IMG/VR virus record: IMGVR_UViG_3300006919_000575
Span: 1 to 21,126 of that record
Strand: one strand, 5' to 3'
DNA length: 21,126 nucleotides
Source of the DNA: a virus
Shown here piece by piece: positions 2,070 to 13,343 of this stretch. A program made the translations under genes and the position numbers. Position 1 is the stretch's first letter; each line of letters opens with the position of its first letter. The notes under the pieces were generated by a model. The model saw only the letters and a list, made by a program, of their open reading frames with translations, searched no databases and was not told the origin of the DNA.

Positions 2070-2594
2070 CTAAAACTTTGTATTAACTCTAACATTATTA
2101 TTTTTATCTCTAGCACCTATAATACCTTTTTCGTAATCTATAAACCAAGTCCAGTCATTAGGTCTTAGTTTACCTGTTGCTGCTGGTTTACCTCCTTTAT
2201 CATAGTATTCATTATCTTTTAATTCTACAAATAAATTAGGAAAATCGTATAAATGTCTACCAATACCCCACATAAAACCAGCTCTTTTAAAAGCATCTGA
2301 ATACTCTCCTTTTTCCTTCTCAGTCATAGATTCAGTACCGTTAGACCATTTCCAAACCCACTCAGAACCAAATTTAATAGCTATACCACATTGCAAAACT
2401 CCTTTAGAATCTCTTTTGTAATCGTTCATCCAATTCTCTGGACCTACTACCTCATCAAGTATATTCATATCAACTCTAGCATCCTTATAAGCTAATAATA
2501 AAGCCATAACTTTAGGTCCAGACTTGATTAACTGTTTCACTTTAAAATCAATATTACTAACATCTAGTTTTTTACTTAATCCTTTTGTTTCCAT
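2070..2594 (-). CDS. Rad52-type single-strand annealing protein
   Basis: This 174-residue protein matches the Rad52/22 family of phage annealing proteins, which pair complementary single strands during recombination and replication. The characteristic run is visible: AYKDARVDMNILDEVVGPENW (35-55), a beta-hairpin ending in GSEWVWKWSNG (76-86), and KGEYSDAFKRAGFMWGIGRHLY (95-116). The length fits the N-terminal DNA-binding core without the eukaryotic tail. With the SSB-like gene two genes downstream it forms a typical phage recombination module. No partner 5'-exonuclease is visible in the window. Its start overlaps the end of the upstream gene by 19 bases. Confidence 0.85.
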   Translation of the reverse strand: METKGLSKKLDVSNIDFKVKQLIKSGPKVMALLLAYKDARVDMNILDEVVGPENWMNDYKRDSKGVLQCGIAIKFGSEWVWKWSNGTESMTEKEKGEYSDAFKRAGFMWGIGRHLYDFPNLFVELKDNEYYDKGGKPAATGKLRPNDWTWFIDYEKGIIGARDKNNNVRVNTKF

Positions 2595-2824
2595 GTTTGT
2601 TTCTTTATTTTAATTTGTAACTCAGCATCTTTATTAAATGCTTTTATTATTTTGTTTAGTTTCTCAGCCGTTTTACATATTGACTTTTTCTCTTGAAAAA
2701 TAACAATATTATCGTGACTGTTTTTTAGCTTCTTTATTTCTCTAATGCTCTCAGCTAATTCAGCATTTGATTTATGAGAGTTCTCAATCAGAAAACTCCC
2801 TAAATCGTTCTTTTGTTCTTCCAT
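2576..2824 (-). CDS. Hypothetical Lys-rich helical protein
   Basis: This 82-residue protein is lysine-rich and almost wholly helical in appearance, with a basic C-terminus (KIKKQTWKQKD) and one Cys. It resembles no family I know. It precedes and overlaps the Rad52-like gene, so a role in recombination or nucleic-acid binding is plausible from context and charge only. Confidence 0.6.
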   Translation of the reverse strand: MEEQKNDLGSFLIENSHKSNAELAESIREIKKLKNSHDNIVIFQEKKSICKTAEKLNKIIKAFNKDAELQIKIKKQTWKQKD

Positions 2825-2826
2825 GT

Positions 2827-3072
2827 TTATAATTGTTGAAATTCATCTATTACTAATCTTTTAATATCTTCTTTGTTAATTGCTTCATATCTTTTAATAA
2901 GATCATTACAAATACATTCATTTTCTTCATCGTAATAATCAGAAGATATTTCAAAATCTACTTCTGTTGGGCTGTCGTAATCAGGTTTACTGTAGTAACC
3001 AGTTACTTCAACTGAAAAAGGTCTTTCTTGTGCTTGTCCTAAATAAAATCTTACTGTTTCTGTACGTGTCAT
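2827..3072 (-). CDS. Hypothetical first gene of recombination operon
   Basis: This 81-residue acidic protein has an N-terminal beta-like half (TVRFYLGQAQERPFSVEV) with a DYDSPTEVDFEISSDYYDEENE acidic middle and a helical end. No family is recognised. It is the first gene after the promoter at 3100-3129, so it is probably among the first products of the leftward operon. Small acidic early phage proteins often bind host proteins, but nothing in the sequence proves this here. Confidence 0.6.
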   Translation of the reverse strand: MTRTETVRFYLGQAQERPFSVEVTGYYSKPDYDSPTEVDFEISSDYYDEENECICNDLIKRYEAINKEDIKRLVIDEFQQL

Positions 3073-3099
3073 AATGTTATTTTTTTGTTGTTTGTTTTA

Positions 3100-3129
3100 C
3101 AAATATAATAATAACTTTTTAATATACAA
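3100..3129 (-). promoter_or_regulatory. Flavobacterial-type promoter for recombination operon
   Basis: Read on the minus strand, TATATTTG (3107-3100) matches the -7 element TAnnTTTG exactly, and TTG (3129-3127) lies 19 bases upstream as the -33 element. The spacing fits the 17-23 range of the Bacteroidetes consensus. It overlaps the last bases of the upstream gene and starts transcription about 30 bases before the 2827-3072 gene. Confidence 0.7.
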
Positions 3130-3564
3130 CTATAAGAAAGAAAGTTTTATTTTCATATCATGAGGTGCAGGTGCTTTACCTCCAAAGTAAGGAAATCTAT
3201 AACACCCAAACCAGTAAACCTTTTTACTCTTTAGCTTTATCTTTTTAGTCTGATTTATTTTAACTTCATCTAATGGGTTTATGATACGTTCTCCATTTCT
3301 GTATTCATACGTATAAAGCTTGATAATATCGTTTATAGGGTCATATCTCCATCCTATCCTAATACTATTCCTGTGGTGTAATATTTCACCAAATCCTACA
3401 AGCTTATTAATCTGCTCAGTCATTTGTATAGTATTACCTAAGTATCTGCATGAATCAGTAAACTTAAAAGCTACTGTAATAGATTTACAACGTATAAAAG
3501 GTCTAAACCTAAAACCGCTGTAATGCCTACCTTTTTTTACTACTAATTCGTTTAATCCATACAT
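3130..3564 (-). CDS. Hypothetical basic beta-rich protein
   Basis: This protein has 144 residues and is very basic, with many Tyr, Arg and Lys residues. Strand-like segments include HHRNSIRIGWRYDP (63-76) and IKLYTYEYRNGERI, and it ends in a PYFGGKAPAPHDMKIKLSF segment. There is no signal peptide. I believe similar HH(R/K)NS-x-R-x-GWR proteins exist in other Bacteroidetes but know no function. Its start lies inside the end of the upstream membrane-protein gene (38-base overlap), so the two are coupled. It is the last gene of the accessory block before the recombination promoter. Confidence 0.65.
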   Translation of the reverse strand: MYGLNELVVKKGRHYSGFRFRPFIRCKSITVAFKFTDSCRYLGNTIQMTEQINKLVGFGEILHHRNSIRIGWRYDPINDIIKLYTYEYRNGERIINPLDEVKINQTKKIKLKSKKVYWFGCYRFPYFGGKAPAPHDMKIKLSFL

Positions 3565-4272: not shown

Positions 4273-4482
4273 TCATTCTGATTCTTTGTTTAGTTTATAA
4301 AATTCATTTCTAACCTCATTCCAATAATTAAACTGGTCAGGTGTTAATCTGATAATGAAACTTTCTAAAATCTCATTACAAAATATTAAACCTAAATTTG
4401 AGTTTCTTCTTTTTTCATTTTTATCATTACTTTCATACTGAATTTTGTCAAGTAGTGACAATGCTTTGTCTTTTGGTGTCAT
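4273..4482 (-). CDS. Small helical phage protein
   Basis: This 69-residue protein has the layout TPKDKALSLLDKI, then a polar linker, then NLGLIFCNEILESF, and ends YWNEVRNEFYKL. I recognise this pattern from many short Bacteroidetes phage and prophage proteins that start TPKEKA and end YWxEVxxEixxL, but their function is unknown. It lies just downstream of the hairpin at 4503-4518. Confidence 0.65.
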   Translation of the reverse strand: MTPKDKALSLLDKIQYESNDKNEKRRNSNLGLIFCNEILESFIIRLTPDQFNYWNEVRNEFYKLNKESE

Positions 4483-4502
4483 AATCTTATTTGATGTTTT
4501 AA

Positions 4503-10330: not shown

Positions 10331-10437
10331 AATGATAAAAATACTAAAAATATTTTACTTATTTAGAATTAATATAAATAACAGCTTTTTAATTTTAGTT
10401 AGTATTATTTTTTTTAATATTACATTAATGATACAAC
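10331..10437. other. AT-rich gap before portal operon
   Basis: This 107-base stretch separates the array from the 59-residue gene. It must hold the portal-operon promoter if the unit is not read from elsewhere. On the minus strand TATTTTTA occurs twice near 10340-10360, one base off the -7 consensus, but no good -33 partner is visible. I see no hairpin or ORF that I trust. Confidence 0.4.
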
Positions 10438-10484
10438 TAATGTTAGAAGTAAAAATCTGCGTAGTTGTTTTTACTACGTGTTAT
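10438..10484 (+). repeat. 47-bp hairpin repeat, copy 1 (left edge of array)
   Basis: Matches 12071-12117 at 46 of 47 positions. Inside, AGTAAAAA pairs with TTTTTACT (8 bp, 12-base loop), and alternatively CGTAGT pairs with ACTACG. The outer arm found in copy 2 is missing on the left here, as expected if this is the truncated first boundary of the array. Confidence 0.8.
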
Positions 10485-10497
10485 AAAACGTTAAGAT

Positions 10498-10857
10498 ATG
10501 GAAGATTGGAAAGGAAATACAATAAAAAAAGGTGATATAGTAAAAATATATATGTACAGATATATGTTTAGTGGGTCTGAAATGAGTTTGGTTATTATTG
10601 ATAGAAACGGACGTATTCAGGAAACTGCAAAAACTACAATACCAGAGGAGTATGTGTGGGTGCTTTGTAACACTTATAAAATTATTGGAGGAACAACATT
10701 TATAATTAAAGAAGATACTAAACCAGATGAAGTTGTAGAAATGCCGTTATGTTGCTTTGATTTTATGATTAATGCAAACGGATTTTGTCACGCAATTTGC
10801 ATTGAAGGAGTTTCTGATAATAGAGATGATTTTATGATAAAGCATTTTAGTTCATAG
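10498..10857 (+). CDS. Array ORF 1, hypothetical protein
   Basis: This 119-residue protein begins with a small beta-barrel-like segment (WKGNTIKKGDIVKIY) and has five Cys residues (58, 84, 85, 97, 101), among them CC and CHAIC. No family is recognised. The ATG lies 5 bases after the inverted arm 10480-10492 and the stop lies 3 bases before its partner 10861-10873 (13 pairs, two of them G-T), so arms closely frame the ORF. An extra plus-strand ORF at 10332-10535 overlapping its start is not credible because it runs through the hairpin repeat. Confidence 0.6.
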   Translation: MEDWKGNTIKKGDIVKIYMYRYMFSGSEMSLVIIDRNGRIQETAKTTIPEEYVWVLCNTYKIIGGTTFIIKEDTKPDEVVEMPLCCFDFMINANGFCHAICIEGVSDNRDDFMIKHFSS

Positions 10858-10906
10858 GTAAATGTTTTATAATGTACGGTTGTAATAAACTTTTAAAATC
10901 AGATTA

Positions 10907-11050
10907 ATGAGTAATAAAGAAAACCTACTGGCAATAGTTAGTAAAGAGAAAACAAAGACTATTGAACGAAATAAAATAAGGATTAAATACCGTTGGTTTA
11001 TTAGGATTGTTAATAGGTTGAAACTTTGGTGGCTTAATACTACTGACTGA
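10907..11050 (+). CDS. Array ORF 2, 47-residue basic protein
   Basis: A short ORF starts with ATG at 10907 (MSNKENLLAIVSKEKTKTIE) and ends WWLNTTD with TGA at 11048-11050. It is strongly basic with an aromatic patch (KYRWFIRIVNRLKLWW), so membrane or nucleic-acid contact is possible. The flanking arms 10885-10902 and 11047-11064 pair over 10 plus 6 bp around a symmetric TT/TT internal loop, and the stop lies inside the downstream arm. Reality of the protein is less certain than for longer array ORFs. Confidence 0.45.
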   Translation: MSNKENLLAIVSKEKTKTIERNKIRIKYRWFIRIVNRLKLWWLNTTD

Positions 11051-11075
11051 TTTTAATTGTTTATAATGTTAAATG

Positions 11076-11177
11076 TAAAGATAGTAGGGTAAGAATTGGG
11101 CTATGTACCATAAAGGCGAAACTCCTTAAACTAATAGATGAAGTCTCAAACAGATACATAGCACCCTATTGTTTTTA
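11076..11177 (+). ncRNA. Structured ORF-less element 1
   Basis: A 15-bp closing stem (11076-11090 with 11163-11177, three G-U pairs) is followed by a one-sided 9-base bulge (11091-11099) and a perfect 8-bp inner stem (11100-11107 GCTATGTA with 11155-11162). A small AAGG/CCTT hairpin lies inside. Tolerance of G-U pairs and the nested bulge favour a folded RNA, though a DNA cruciform role is possible. No known RNA family is recognised. Confidence 0.45.
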
Positions 11178-11183
11178 AATTTT

Positions 11184-11279
11184 GTTATGAACTTTGGCGG
11201 TTTCCTGCACTCGGAGTTAGTGATGCGCATTATGGGGGACTTAGTAGTACACAAGCCTACGACCGCCATTGTTTATAAC
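11184..11279 (+). ncRNA. Structured ORF-less element 2
   Basis: The closing stem has 9 bp, a symmetric TT/TT internal loop, then 8 bp (11184-11202 with 11261-11279). The same TT/TT internal loop, in the contexts AACTTT and ATTGTT, occurs in the arms around array ORF 2, which links the coding and non-coding units. The interior is GC-richer than its surroundings. No RNA family is recognised. Confidence 0.45.
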
Positions 11280-11285
11280 GTACAA

Positions 11286-11395
11286 GAATATGAGTAGTGG
11301 CGGGAATAAGGGTTAATAGTACCGCATACAAACGAGTAACCCCGAAAGACCCGAAGGTTCAGCTCTTAGGTATGCTTTAGCCATTACTTATATTT
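11286..11395 (+). ncRNA. Structured ORF-less element 3
   Basis: The closing stem is 16 bp (11286-11301 with 11380-11395, three G-U pairs). Inside, GCATAC (11324-11329) can pair with GTATGC (11370-11375), and GGGTTA (11310-11315) with TAACCC (11337-11342); together these would form a pseudoknot. The inner 12 bp of the closing stem (ATGAGTAGTGGC) are identical to element 4 while the outer pairs change in a compensatory way. Confidence 0.5.
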
Positions 11396-11398
11396 ATT

Positions 11399-11427
11399 GT
11401 TGTATGTCTTTTTTAATTGCATACAAC
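11399..11427 (+). repeat. Spacer hairpin between elements 3 and 4
   Basis: GTTGTATG pairs with CATACAAC (8 bp) around a 13-base loop. The 13-base string CTTTTTTAATTGC at 11408-11420 recurs exactly at 11822-11834 in another spacer hairpin, although the stems differ. Confidence 0.7.
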
Positions 11428-11433
11428 GGACGA

Positions 11434-11506
11434 GTGTATGAGTAGTGGCACATACACCGAACCTTTGAATTATGCCACAAACTTTAACGTGCCATTACTT
11501 ATACAC
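11434..11506 (+). ncRNA. Structured ORF-less element 4
   Basis: An 18-bp closing stem (11434-11451 with 11489-11506) contains two G-U pairs. Compared with element 3, two outer pairs change from A-U and A-U to U-A and G-C, keeping the pairing. GTGGCA (11445-11450) has a second partner at TGCCAC (11472-11477), so two mutually exclusive folds exist. It is the shortest unit, 73 bases. Confidence 0.5.
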
Positions 11507-11509
11507 ATT

Positions 11510-11807
11510 GTTGTGTGTAGTAGCGGTTTAAAACAATAAAAATGAAAATATTACACATTACACCAAGTAGTAACGGTTATGAAGAAGTTGAACTTTTAGC
11601 AAACCGAATTAACAGAAAAAACAGCCTTGCACTTATTTTGAAAAACGGACAAGAGTGTATGACTGGCGGACATTTGATAAATGACACTCCTGATATTAGG
11701 GCTGTTTTGGATTCAATGCCAGGAGATAAGCAATATGACTTCGTAACTATGTTTAAATGCGACCCTTTTGCTAAAAGTTATGCGGAAGAGTAGCTATTAC
11801 ACACAAC
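11510..11807 (+). repeat. 15-bp inverted arms framing array ORF 3
   Basis: GTTGTGTGTAGTAGC (11510-11524) pairs with GCTATTACACACAAC (11793-11807) at all 15 positions, with a single G-T pair. The downstream arm begins at the last base of the stop codon of the enclosed gene. Confidence 0.8.
11542..11793 (+). CDS. Array ORF 3, small conserved-looking protein
   Basis: This 83-residue protein starts MKILHITPSSNGYEEVELLA and has NRINRKNSLALILKNGQE, MTGGHLINDTP and KQYDFVTMFKCDP segments. I believe close relatives with the TPxSNGYEEV, MTGG and KQYDFV motifs occur as small proteins in other Bacteroidetes, but I know no function. It is framed by 15-bp inverted arms (11510-11524 with 11793-11807) and lies directly after the ORF-less elements. 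Confidence 0.65.
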   Translation: MKILHITPSSNGYEEVELLANRINRKNSLALILKNGQECMTGGHLINDTPDIRAVLDSMPGDKQYDFVTMFKCDPFAKSYAEE

Positions 11808-11815
11808 GTTTAAAG

Positions 11816-11839
11816 TAAACGCTTTTTTAATTGCGTTTA
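11816..11839 (+). repeat. Spacer hairpin between array ORFs 3 and 4
   Basis: TAAACGC pairs with GCGTTTA (7 bp) around TTTTTTAATT. It shares the 13-base string CTTTTTTAATTGC with the spacer at 11399-11427. A possible outer stem ACACA (11801-11805) with TGTGT (11844-11848) would extend it. Confidence 0.7.
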
Positions 11840-11877
11840 ATTATGTGTTATGTTTTGTTAAATTAAAATAGATTAAG

Positions 11878-12063
11878 ATGAATATAAAAGATTTAAACCT
11901 AAAGGTGGGTAGTAGAATTAGGCAGAAAAGTTGGAGAAAAGGTAAACTTGTTGTTGTTACTTGTATTGAAATTAACCGAGGTGAACCAACTTATTATGCA
12001 GTAGATAAAAACGGCAAAGAATCTGTTTATGGTAATTACGGTGATTGGGAAATTGTAGAGTAA
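11878..12063 (+). CDS. Array ORF 4, small beta-barrel-like protein
   Basis: This 61-residue basic protein has a short SH3-like layout: KVGSRIRQKSWRKGKLVVVT, then GEPTYYAVDKNGKES and a WEIVE end. Similar small VGxxIRxKSW...WxxV proteins occur in phage and mobile DNA, with no known role. Its unit is framed by arms 11848-11860 and 12061-12073 (13 bp, one G-T pair), and its stop codon lies inside the downstream arm. A minus-strand ORF at 11899-12204 is a shadow. Confidence 0.6.
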   Translation: MNIKDLNLKVGSRIRQKSWRKGKLVVVTCIEINRGEPTYYAVDKNGKESVYGNYGDWEIVE

Positions 12064-12070
12064 TAAAACA

Positions 12071-12117
12071 TAATGATAGAAGTAAAAATCTGCGTAGTTG
12101 TTTTTACTACGTGTTAT
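12071..12117 (+). repeat. 47-bp hairpin repeat, copy 2
   Basis: Matches 10438-10484 except at one base. Here the outer stem is present: ACATAA (12068-12073) pairs with TTATGT (12114-12119), enclosing the 8-bp AGTAAAAA / TTTTTACT hairpin. It forms the boundary between array ORFs 4 and 5. Confidence 0.8.
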
Positions 12118-12130
12118 GTAACGTGAGAAT

Positions 12131-12454
12131 ATGAGTACTAAAGCAAATTTTATATACGAAGAAGGTTTTGAAGGTTTTGAAGAAACAAACGAACCACAAA
12201 GCATATTTGGTAAATTTACTGGATATAATGCTTATTTAATAATTGAAAATAATTACATAGATTTCTTTAAGTTGGATGGTGAATATTTAGTTATTAAAAC
12301 TAAAAACAACAATAAAATACCTAAACACTTTAAATTATGGGGTGATGCCGTTATTGAGTTTGAATGGGATGAAGATGGTTTGGAGATTGTTTTAAAAGGA
12401 GGACATCACATTACAAAAAAGGTGATAAAGAATGATTACCCAAATGTTACATAA
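12131..12454 (+). CDS. Array ORF 5, hypothetical acidic protein
   Basis: This 107-residue protein has an acidic N-terminus (EEGFEGFEETNE) and a beta-rich middle (KFTGYNAYLIIENNYIDFFKL, then HFKLWGDAVIEFEWDEDGLEIVLKGG). No family is recognised. It is framed by arms 12111-12124 and 12444-12457 (14 bp with two G-T pairs), with the stop codon inside the downstream arm. The ATG follows copy 2 of the 47-bp hairpin by 13 bases. Confidence 0.6.
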   Translation: MSTKANFIYEEGFEGFEETNEPQSIFGKFTGYNAYLIIENNYIDFFKLDGEYLVIKTKNNNKIPKHFKLWGDAVIEFEWDEDGLEIVLKGGHHITKKVIKNDYPNVT

Positions 12455-12486
12455 CATAGTTGTAATGACACTTTAAGTATTAACTA

Positions 12487-12711
12487 ATGGAAACAATATC
12501 AATAACTTATACTATTACTTTTGTTGTGGATTTTGCCCCAGAGTATAAGTTTACAAAGTACAAAGAATGTTTTAACGCTAAGACTGGCAGAAAGATAAAA
12601 CAAATATCTAATAACGGAACTTTAGGATATAAGATTAGAGGTAGTTTCTATTCTGTTAATAATCTTAGAAAACACCTAGTAAAACCAGTTAAAGCAGATT
12701 GTCCTTTCTAA
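12487..12711 (+). CDS. Array ORF 6, small phage-type protein
   Basis: This 74-residue basic protein contains FAPEYKFTKYKECFNAKTGRKI, a GYKIRGSFYSVNNLRKHL segment and a CPF end. I recognise this pattern from short proteins in Bacteroidetes phages, somewhat like the small DNA-binding NUMOD repeats of homing endonucleases, but there is no nuclease domain. It is the last plus-strand gene. Unlike the other array ORFs it has no obvious partner arm downstream, so it may be the array end or a separate phage gene. Its stop is 9 bases from the convergent terminator. Confidence 0.6.
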   Translation: METISITYTITFVVDFAPEYKFTKYKECFNAKTGRKIKQISNNGTLGYKIRGSFYSVNNLRKHLVKPVKADCPF

Positions 12712-12714
12712 ACT

Positions 12715-12742
12715 AAAAAAGGGTTAGCGTAAAAACTAACCC
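12715..12742 (-). terminator. Terminator after tail tube gene
   Basis: On the minus strand GGGTTAG pairs with CTAACCC (7 bp, 8-base loop) and is followed by six T (12720-12715). It ends the capsid-tube transcript at the edge of the array. On the plus strand the stem is followed by CTTT only, so its main use is for the minus strand, though it may also slow the convergent transcript. Confidence 0.8.
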
Positions 12743-12767
12743 CTTTAAGCAACTATTGAAAGTATAA

Positions 12768-13343
12768 TTAAGAACCAAATGATACTGAACCACTAGCATT
12801 AGTGTCAATAGACCCTACAAATTCTCTTAGTAATTCAGCTTGTTTACCAGAGAAAGTTACTGTATAACCGTTCTGACCTTGTACCTCTCCTTCAATAACT
12901 TCTGAAGCGATAGCATCAACATGAGCATCAACGCCCATAATCTCATCAAAACCTAATACAAAAGCTTTATTCTCAGTAGTTTCTTTGTTGTAAGTTTCAA
13001 AAATTACAACTAATCCACAAGACTGAACATAAGCGTTAATTCCTTGTGCTTTTGTTTTCTCCATCTTAGGGCAAAATACCTCTAAAGTAGTTTCATAAGC
13101 GATAGAACCGTTTTCTCTACTTCCCTCAGAAGTATAAGTCTTAGTTTCTAACTCTCCTTCAATCTCATACCAAACATCTGAAGTAGCTGCAAGAGTTACA
13201 GCAGTATAAGCGTGCTCAGTTGAAACAGTTGAAGCAGTAAAGCTAGAAATATCATCTTTATTTGTAATGAAGATACGTTTTATACCTCCTCTTCTATTCT
13301 CATCGGCACAACCAAAAAGAATATCTGTACTAATTTCTGCCAT
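12768..13343 (-). CDS. Probable major tail tube protein
   Basis: This 191-residue protein starts MAEISTDILFGCADENRRGG and is rich in beta-forming Thr, Val and Ser. It contains YEIEGELETKTYTSEGSREN, SIAYETTLEVFCPKMEK and VVIFETYNK, an arrangement I associate with tail tube proteins of Bacteroidetes phages. It lies directly downstream of the capsid gene and ends 26 bases before a terminator. An abundant structural protein is likely; the tube assignment is from pattern and position. Confidence 0.6.
   Translation of the reverse strand: MAEISTDILFGCADENRRGGIKRIFITNKDDISSFTASTVSTEHAYTAVTLAATSDVWYEIEGELETKTYTSEGSRENGSIAYETTLEVFCPKMEKTKAQGINAYVQSCGLVVIFETYNKETTENKAFVLGFDEIMGVDAHVDAIASEVIEGEVQGQNGYTVTFSGKQAELLREFVGSIDTNASGSVSFGS

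Follow-up and report, generated by a model that had tools for sequence, protein, structure and literature searches.

A probable integrase-less, integron-like cassette array splitting the late genes of a Bacteroidota phage

The window analysed here is the whole of the 21,126-nt IMG/VR record IMGVR_UViG_3300006919_000575, in which a plus-strand block (10438–12713) interrupts the late genes on the minus strand (Table 1). A portal protein (PF04860) and a Clp-type protease (PF00574) were confirmed among the minus-strand head genes, the former in agreement with the flanking portal operon proposed in a preliminary description of this DNA, and the gene at 12768–13343 gave no family match to back the proposed tail tube assignment. 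That description recognized ten opposite-strand units splitting the late genes; the plus-strand array between minus-strand genes is indeed present, but we parse it as nine cassettes, with cuts at a recurring AAC or AAT before each site. Six of the cassettes contain an ORF (O1–O6) and three are noncoding. None of the ORFs has a convincing Pfam or PHROG match, no tRNA or tmRNA was found in the window, and no similar DNA was found in plasmids. An imperfect palindrome, ATTTAGAATTAATATAAAT (10361–10379), lies between the portal operon and the array, is kept in relatives and could represent an operator or divergent promoter. Elsewhere in the window, the backbone encodes a C5-methyltransferase-like gene (1166–1828), and in a relative a similar ORF (L180:3746–4348) occupies the array site as a cassette. 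The stretch 4442–4492 is shared, at 96% identity, with L228:270–320: these 51 bp (MTPKDKALSLLDK...) begin a backbone gene here and a different, cassette-borne ORF in L228, and beyond them the sequences diverge.

Table 1. Coordinates of the cassettes, their flanks and comparable features in other contigs
Feature	Position	Strand	Remarks
Left flank	10338–10434		Retained in empty-site relatives; compared with empty sites of L133, L134, L136 and L209
Cassette 1: 63-nt-type hairpin site + O1 (119 aa, no family)	10438–10873	+	O1 10498–10857; arms I3 10481/10853
Cassette 2: short stemless site + O2 (47 aa)	10874–11066	+	O2 10907–11050; arms I4 10885/11047
Cassette 3: noncoding attC-like hairpin	11067–11192	+	attC-model match 11060–11191, E=0.001
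Cassette 4: noncoding hairpin GGCGGT...ACCGCC	11193–11279	+	Fold z=-2.0 as DNA; no attC-model match; exact core confined to identical phages
Cassette 5: attC-like hairpin, loop = structured RNA domain	11280–11427	+	attC-model match 11272–11406, E=2.6e-10; RNA fold z=-3.9
Circularly permuted structured RNA domain, absent from Rfam 15	11300–11378	+
Cassette 6: attC-like hairpin G (about 11428–11512) + O3 (83 aa)	11428–11807	+	O3 11542–11793; arms I6 11510/11793; attC-model match 11420–11517, E=1.4e-14
Cassette 7: hairpin site + O4 (61 aa)	11808–12074	+	O4 11878–12063; arms I2 11848/12052; lost with cassette 8 in L132/L137
Cassette 8: 63-nt-type site + O5 (107 aa)	12075–12455	+	O5 12131–12454; lost in L132/L137; other right neighbour past AAC in L314
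Cassette 9: short stemless site + O6 (74 aa)	12456–12713	+	O6 12487–12711
Terminator-like hairpin closing the array	12718–12745		From sequence; retained in empty-site relatives
Arrays of the 246-kb contig, each followed by a recombinase gene	L212:8683–10563; L317
RNA domain, both permutations	Window 11300–11378; L001–L009, L277–L287		Phage tRNA clusters and cassette loops

Inverted arms of 15–22 nt enclose whole units, several ORFs included, and a 63-nt boundary sequence is present twice at 90% identity. Nine of the ten units had been described as closed by long inverted arms; such arms are present as I2, I3, I4 and I6, and two boundaries (10862–10906 and 12450–12486) show no visible stem. Arms that pair both across boundaries and around whole units had further been taken as a departure from integrons. 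They are no such departure: arms around whole units are the R'/R'' pairing expected of integron cassettes, because the start of a cassette (from R') is complementary to its own R''. In the window, the start and end arms of ORF units prefer their own partners over those of other units, with permutation p=0.02 when scored by alignment and 0.08 when scored by energy. L270, a cellular array beside a recombinase, shows this pairing more strongly (p<5e-5). Comparison with shuffled sequences clearly favours one structure, the RNA fold of 11268–11420, which none of 200 shuffles equalled; the other hairpins, folded as plus-strand single-stranded DNA, surpass their shuffles only to a moderate degree (z -0.8 to -2.9), and 10430–10490 alone does not differ significantly from them. 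Small ORFans, an AT-rich region and the modest fold scores of some units would suit ordinary moron genes added singly, with the pairing arising by chance. Such an origin is barely credible, as the sites recur in unrelated phages, and the empty sites, precise excision and relocation described below contradict it. Evidence beyond chance is stronger from the comparison among relatives than from folding.

The preliminary description proposed searching genomes with the arms and a covariance model, and comparing related phages. The arm pattern AACG-N8-TATGAGTAGTGGC occurs in more than 117 stretches among the genome-contig matches listed, mostly from Bacteroidota and allies, and in 37 stretches of viral contigs. 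A covariance model was trained on 17 hairpin sites, all cellular and mostly from Bacteroidota genomes; in their alignment the ends AAC...GTT are invariant and the stems covary. The model matches cassettes 3, 5 and 6 of the window, all on the plus strand, with a weak echo of the cassette 6 match on the opposite strand, and it gives 35 matches across the host loci and 28 across those of phages. Since eight of the 17 training sites were found via a pattern derived from the window (the nine sites from L270 were chosen without it), the E-values of cassettes 5 and 6 are partly circular. Neither cassette 4 nor the 63-nt sites are matched by the model which, together with the stemless sites of cassettes 2 and 9, indicates that the array is heterogeneous. 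Of the attC boxes RYYYAAC and GTTRRRY, which enclose an imperfect hairpin, AAC...GTT is present and RRRY is only loosely kept. CALIN elements are defined by at least two attC sites without an integrase, and with our home-made model the window has two such sites, in cassettes 5 and 6, and a weaker one in cassette 3.

For the comparison among phages, we used 80 portal relatives and took as the array site the stretch that separates the gene at 12768 from the small gene lying upstream of portal. Presence, absence and order of cassettes vary among them. The site is empty (about 110–140 bp) in most relatives, including some that are 93–96% identical in portal; two relatives carry the same array; and others contain different cassettes at the same place (492–1305 bp), one with a C5-methyltransferase-like ORF. 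In L132/L137, whose portal protein is identical, exactly 648 bp are missing (11808–12455), corresponding to cassettes 7 and 8. The breakpoints are ACACAAC|G and ACATAAC|A, and the joined sequence reads ACACAAC|ATAG. Since the 63-nt repeats do not delimit the missing block, their collapse during assembly does not explain the loss. In L228, the array site is empty and the flanking blocks are 92–93% identical to the window in DNA, but cassette 6 (hairpin G and O3) is found, at 95% identity, in another array about 6 kb away. Homology stops at AACG on both sides (AAC breaks), both neighbours differ, and the ORF differs from that of the window by 11 synonymous and 4 nonsynonymous codon changes. The copy of cassette 8 in L314 is unchanged up to and including ACATAAC, beyond which its right-hand neighbour is a different one. 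The sites are also found with other genes: the cassette 1 site precedes other ORFs in L294, L295, L297 and L298, and hairpin G is 97–100% identical in several contigs lacking a related backbone, each time with a different ORF 38–51 nt downstream, some of which encode methyltransferases. O3 homologs in the large phages L305–L311 have no recognisable flanking sites, indicating that this ORF exists outside cassettes too. Thus, the array is mobile, with cassette-precise loss, gain and relocation, and the natural excision and insertion events break precisely at AAC (G^TT core), as in integrons. The microhomology at the breakpoints is just 3 nt, and a single event could be a rare illegitimate recombination.

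An alternative is a fossil or passive cluster: the array would have been acquired a single time from a host integron, and all change since then would be due to ordinary recombination between phages, whether homologous or illegitimate. Tyrosine recombinase (PF00589) was not matched in the contigs, about 40 kb each, of six relatives, consistent with such a cluster, as are the degenerate, stemless sites at two boundaries and the presence of repeats, such as the 63-nt boundary, which could recombine. Nevertheless, three independent sets of junctions fall at AAC and the 648-bp loss did not occur between 63-nt repeats, and we consider this explanation unlikely.

Candidate recombinases are found near the cellular sites in several genomes. 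Among the eight genomes with the full hairpin pattern, five encode a tyrosine recombinase related to TIGR02249 within 15 kb, and a sixth (G009) contains only fragments; a recombinase homolog is present in just 5 of 117 8-kb loci, so that the host linkage rests on few genomes. In L270, about 14 gene cassettes, all in the same direction and with ~130-bp hairpins between them, lie behind the recombinase gene (2355–3485); L275 contains a smaller array. Another host recombinase gene is that of Draconibacterium orientale (L268:7704–8825). At the positions usual for the active site, Arg, His and Tyr do not vary among six recombinases, and the host proteins have an N-terminal extension of roughly 90 aa. 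The linked host recombinase scores 204 bits against TIGR02249, below the cut-off of 265, and in alignment with IntI4 (2A3V) it skips about 45 residues (200–247). Thus, it lacks the IntI-specific insertion, which places it outside canonical integrons. The best fit of the L270 protein is NF040815 (XerA), with 223 bits against a cut-off of 220. The XerA-like recombinase, as well as the short boundaries of about 25–30 bp with inverted ends, might suggest exchange of Xer/dif modules (pdif-like) rather than attC-type sites. Modules of this type would have 28-bp XerC/XerD sites at their ends. However, the linked chromosomal sites are imperfect hairpins of about 130 bp with conserved AACG...TGTT ends, not short dif sites, and, with the boundaries judged by eye, this possibility appears very improbable.

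A viral contig of 246 kb (IMGVR_UViG_3300025030_000041; terminase match) encodes two XerA/IntI-like recombinase homologs (one at L212:9748–10563), each directly beside its own array, and a shorter, near-identical contig encodes one. In the 246-kb phage, an AAC| junction lies just upstream of the recombinase, which starts at the array end and is co-directional with the ORFs. Apart from the reversed cargo, this arrangement is the divergent one of classical integrons. In the family of the window phage, no attI site or integrase-promoter platform was identified. A noncoding element of ~160 bp with AACG at both ends is repeated in both arrays (L212 ~8982; L317, reverse strand, ~827); its first 82 bp are exact and the rest is similar, with a TAnnTTTG stretch resembling a promoter at the end.

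The loop of cassette 5 (79 nt) matches intergenic RNA in the tRNA clusters of T4-like, T5-like, Vequintavirinae and jumbo phages; one further copy lies in a group I intron loop. In all these copies, the core comes after the piece GCTCTTAGG, but in the window and some viral contigs it comes before this piece, indicating a circular permutation. Hammerhead and twister ribozymes are known examples of compact cores that occur in circularly permuted forms. All 16 proposed pairs are kept in each of 15 sequences of the domain, with a covariation score of 0.51 versus 0.14 in shuffles. In Rfam 15, no family reached its gathering threshold in the window, and array matches at E<10 were at chance level; over the domain in the phage loci, Rfam was silent except for the group I intron that hosts one copy. 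By eye, T4 rnaC and rnaD, considered as candidate counterparts, do not resemble the domain.

Phage and cellular arrays differ in polarity. When hairpins are read as AACG...TGTT, the flanking genes lie on the same strand in 34 of 35 phage cases but in only 4 of 53 cellular ones, the other 49 being on the opposite strand; a pattern-based count agrees. Hence, relative to attC, the ORFs of phage cassettes have the reverse orientation, and the hairpin is located 5' of the gene. Since this polarity is unlike that of host arrays, the phage array is no simple copy of one, which also counts against a fossil cluster. The folded strand differs as well. Folding of the bottom (antisense) strand, as in canonical integrons, is found in the cellular array, where the better-folded strand is antisense to the genes at 10 of 10 sites, but not in phages, where the better-paired strand is mostly gene-sense (G.T pairs 20 versus 3). 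The latter bias, as well as the covarying structured RNA in one loop, would be expected if the hairpins mainly served the transcript, in RNA processing, stability or ribozyme-like units, and the cassette boundaries were joins of RNA modules. We regard this as improbable, given that the same physical strand folds better in the chromosomal array, where it is antisense, as attC bottom strands would have it, and given the DNA-level breakpoints at AAC.

Collectively, the sequence comparisons favour, with a probability of roughly 85%, a CALIN-type cluster, in other words an integron-like cassette array without an integrase, carried by a Bacteroidota phage and recombining at AA^C (opposite strand, G^TT). 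In the proposed scheme, a cassette would combine a hairpin site of the type seen in Bacteroidota chromosomes with an ORF, which in phages comes after the site, and recombination at AA^C would excise, insert or reshuffle whole cassettes. A recombinase supplied in trans by the host or a co-infecting phage would presumably act on the single-stranded hairpins. The reversed ORF orientation may be kept because phage transcription reads the ORFs together from one strand. Host-interaction genes are a likely part of the cargo; methyltransferases are found in sister arrays, not in that of the window.

The layout had been thought to match no described system. However, integrase-less attC clusters have been reported in phages, including a Polaribacter (Flavobacteriia) phage, with DNA methyltransferases among the cargo (PMC9892861, 2023). 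The present array resembles them in its phage-borne cassettes, folded recombination sites and lack of an integrase, but the linked recombinase is not IntI proper, the ORFs are reversed relative to attC, there are noncoding units (one with a structured RNA), and loss and relocation are visible between near-identical phages. Polarity reversal, the non-IntI host recombinase and the structured RNA go beyond what the preliminary description had seen. With chromosomal integrons, the system shares R''/R'-like AAC...GTT boxes, imperfect hairpins, serial ORF-attC cassettes, a better-folded antisense strand in the cellular array and a recombinase adjoining the array (L270); it differs in the recombinase, for the reasons given above. 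Compared with XerA-type recombinases (NF040815), among which the L270 protein passes the cut-off, the host proteins are extended N-terminally and lie beside cassette arrays. Complete integrons in Bacteroidetes are known only from Salinibacter, according to the authors of IntegronFinder (PMC9024848). In the literature searched, with incomplete coverage, neither the Bacteroidota system nor the RNA domain was found described. The mobile integrase-less array is a variant rather than a canonical integron.

More tentatively, at somewhat less than even odds, Bacteroidota phages may have an integron class of their own, with a XerA-like recombinase without the IntI insertion, a hairpin 5' of the gene on a shared transcript, cassette trade between phages, and noncoding cassettes as carriers of folded RNA modules. 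Among the latter would be a new circularly permuted RNA, possibly a ribozyme, which also occurs in the tRNA clusters of large, unrelated phages. Structural and cleavage studies could readily be directed at this conserved domain. IntI-based searches would miss such an integron-like system of Bacteroidota and their phages, because its recombinase is not captured by the IntI model. The comparison presented here makes cassette exchange between nearly identical phages visible, and the opposite polarity of phage and chromosomal cassettes offers a simple clue to array expression and to the continued separation of the two pools.
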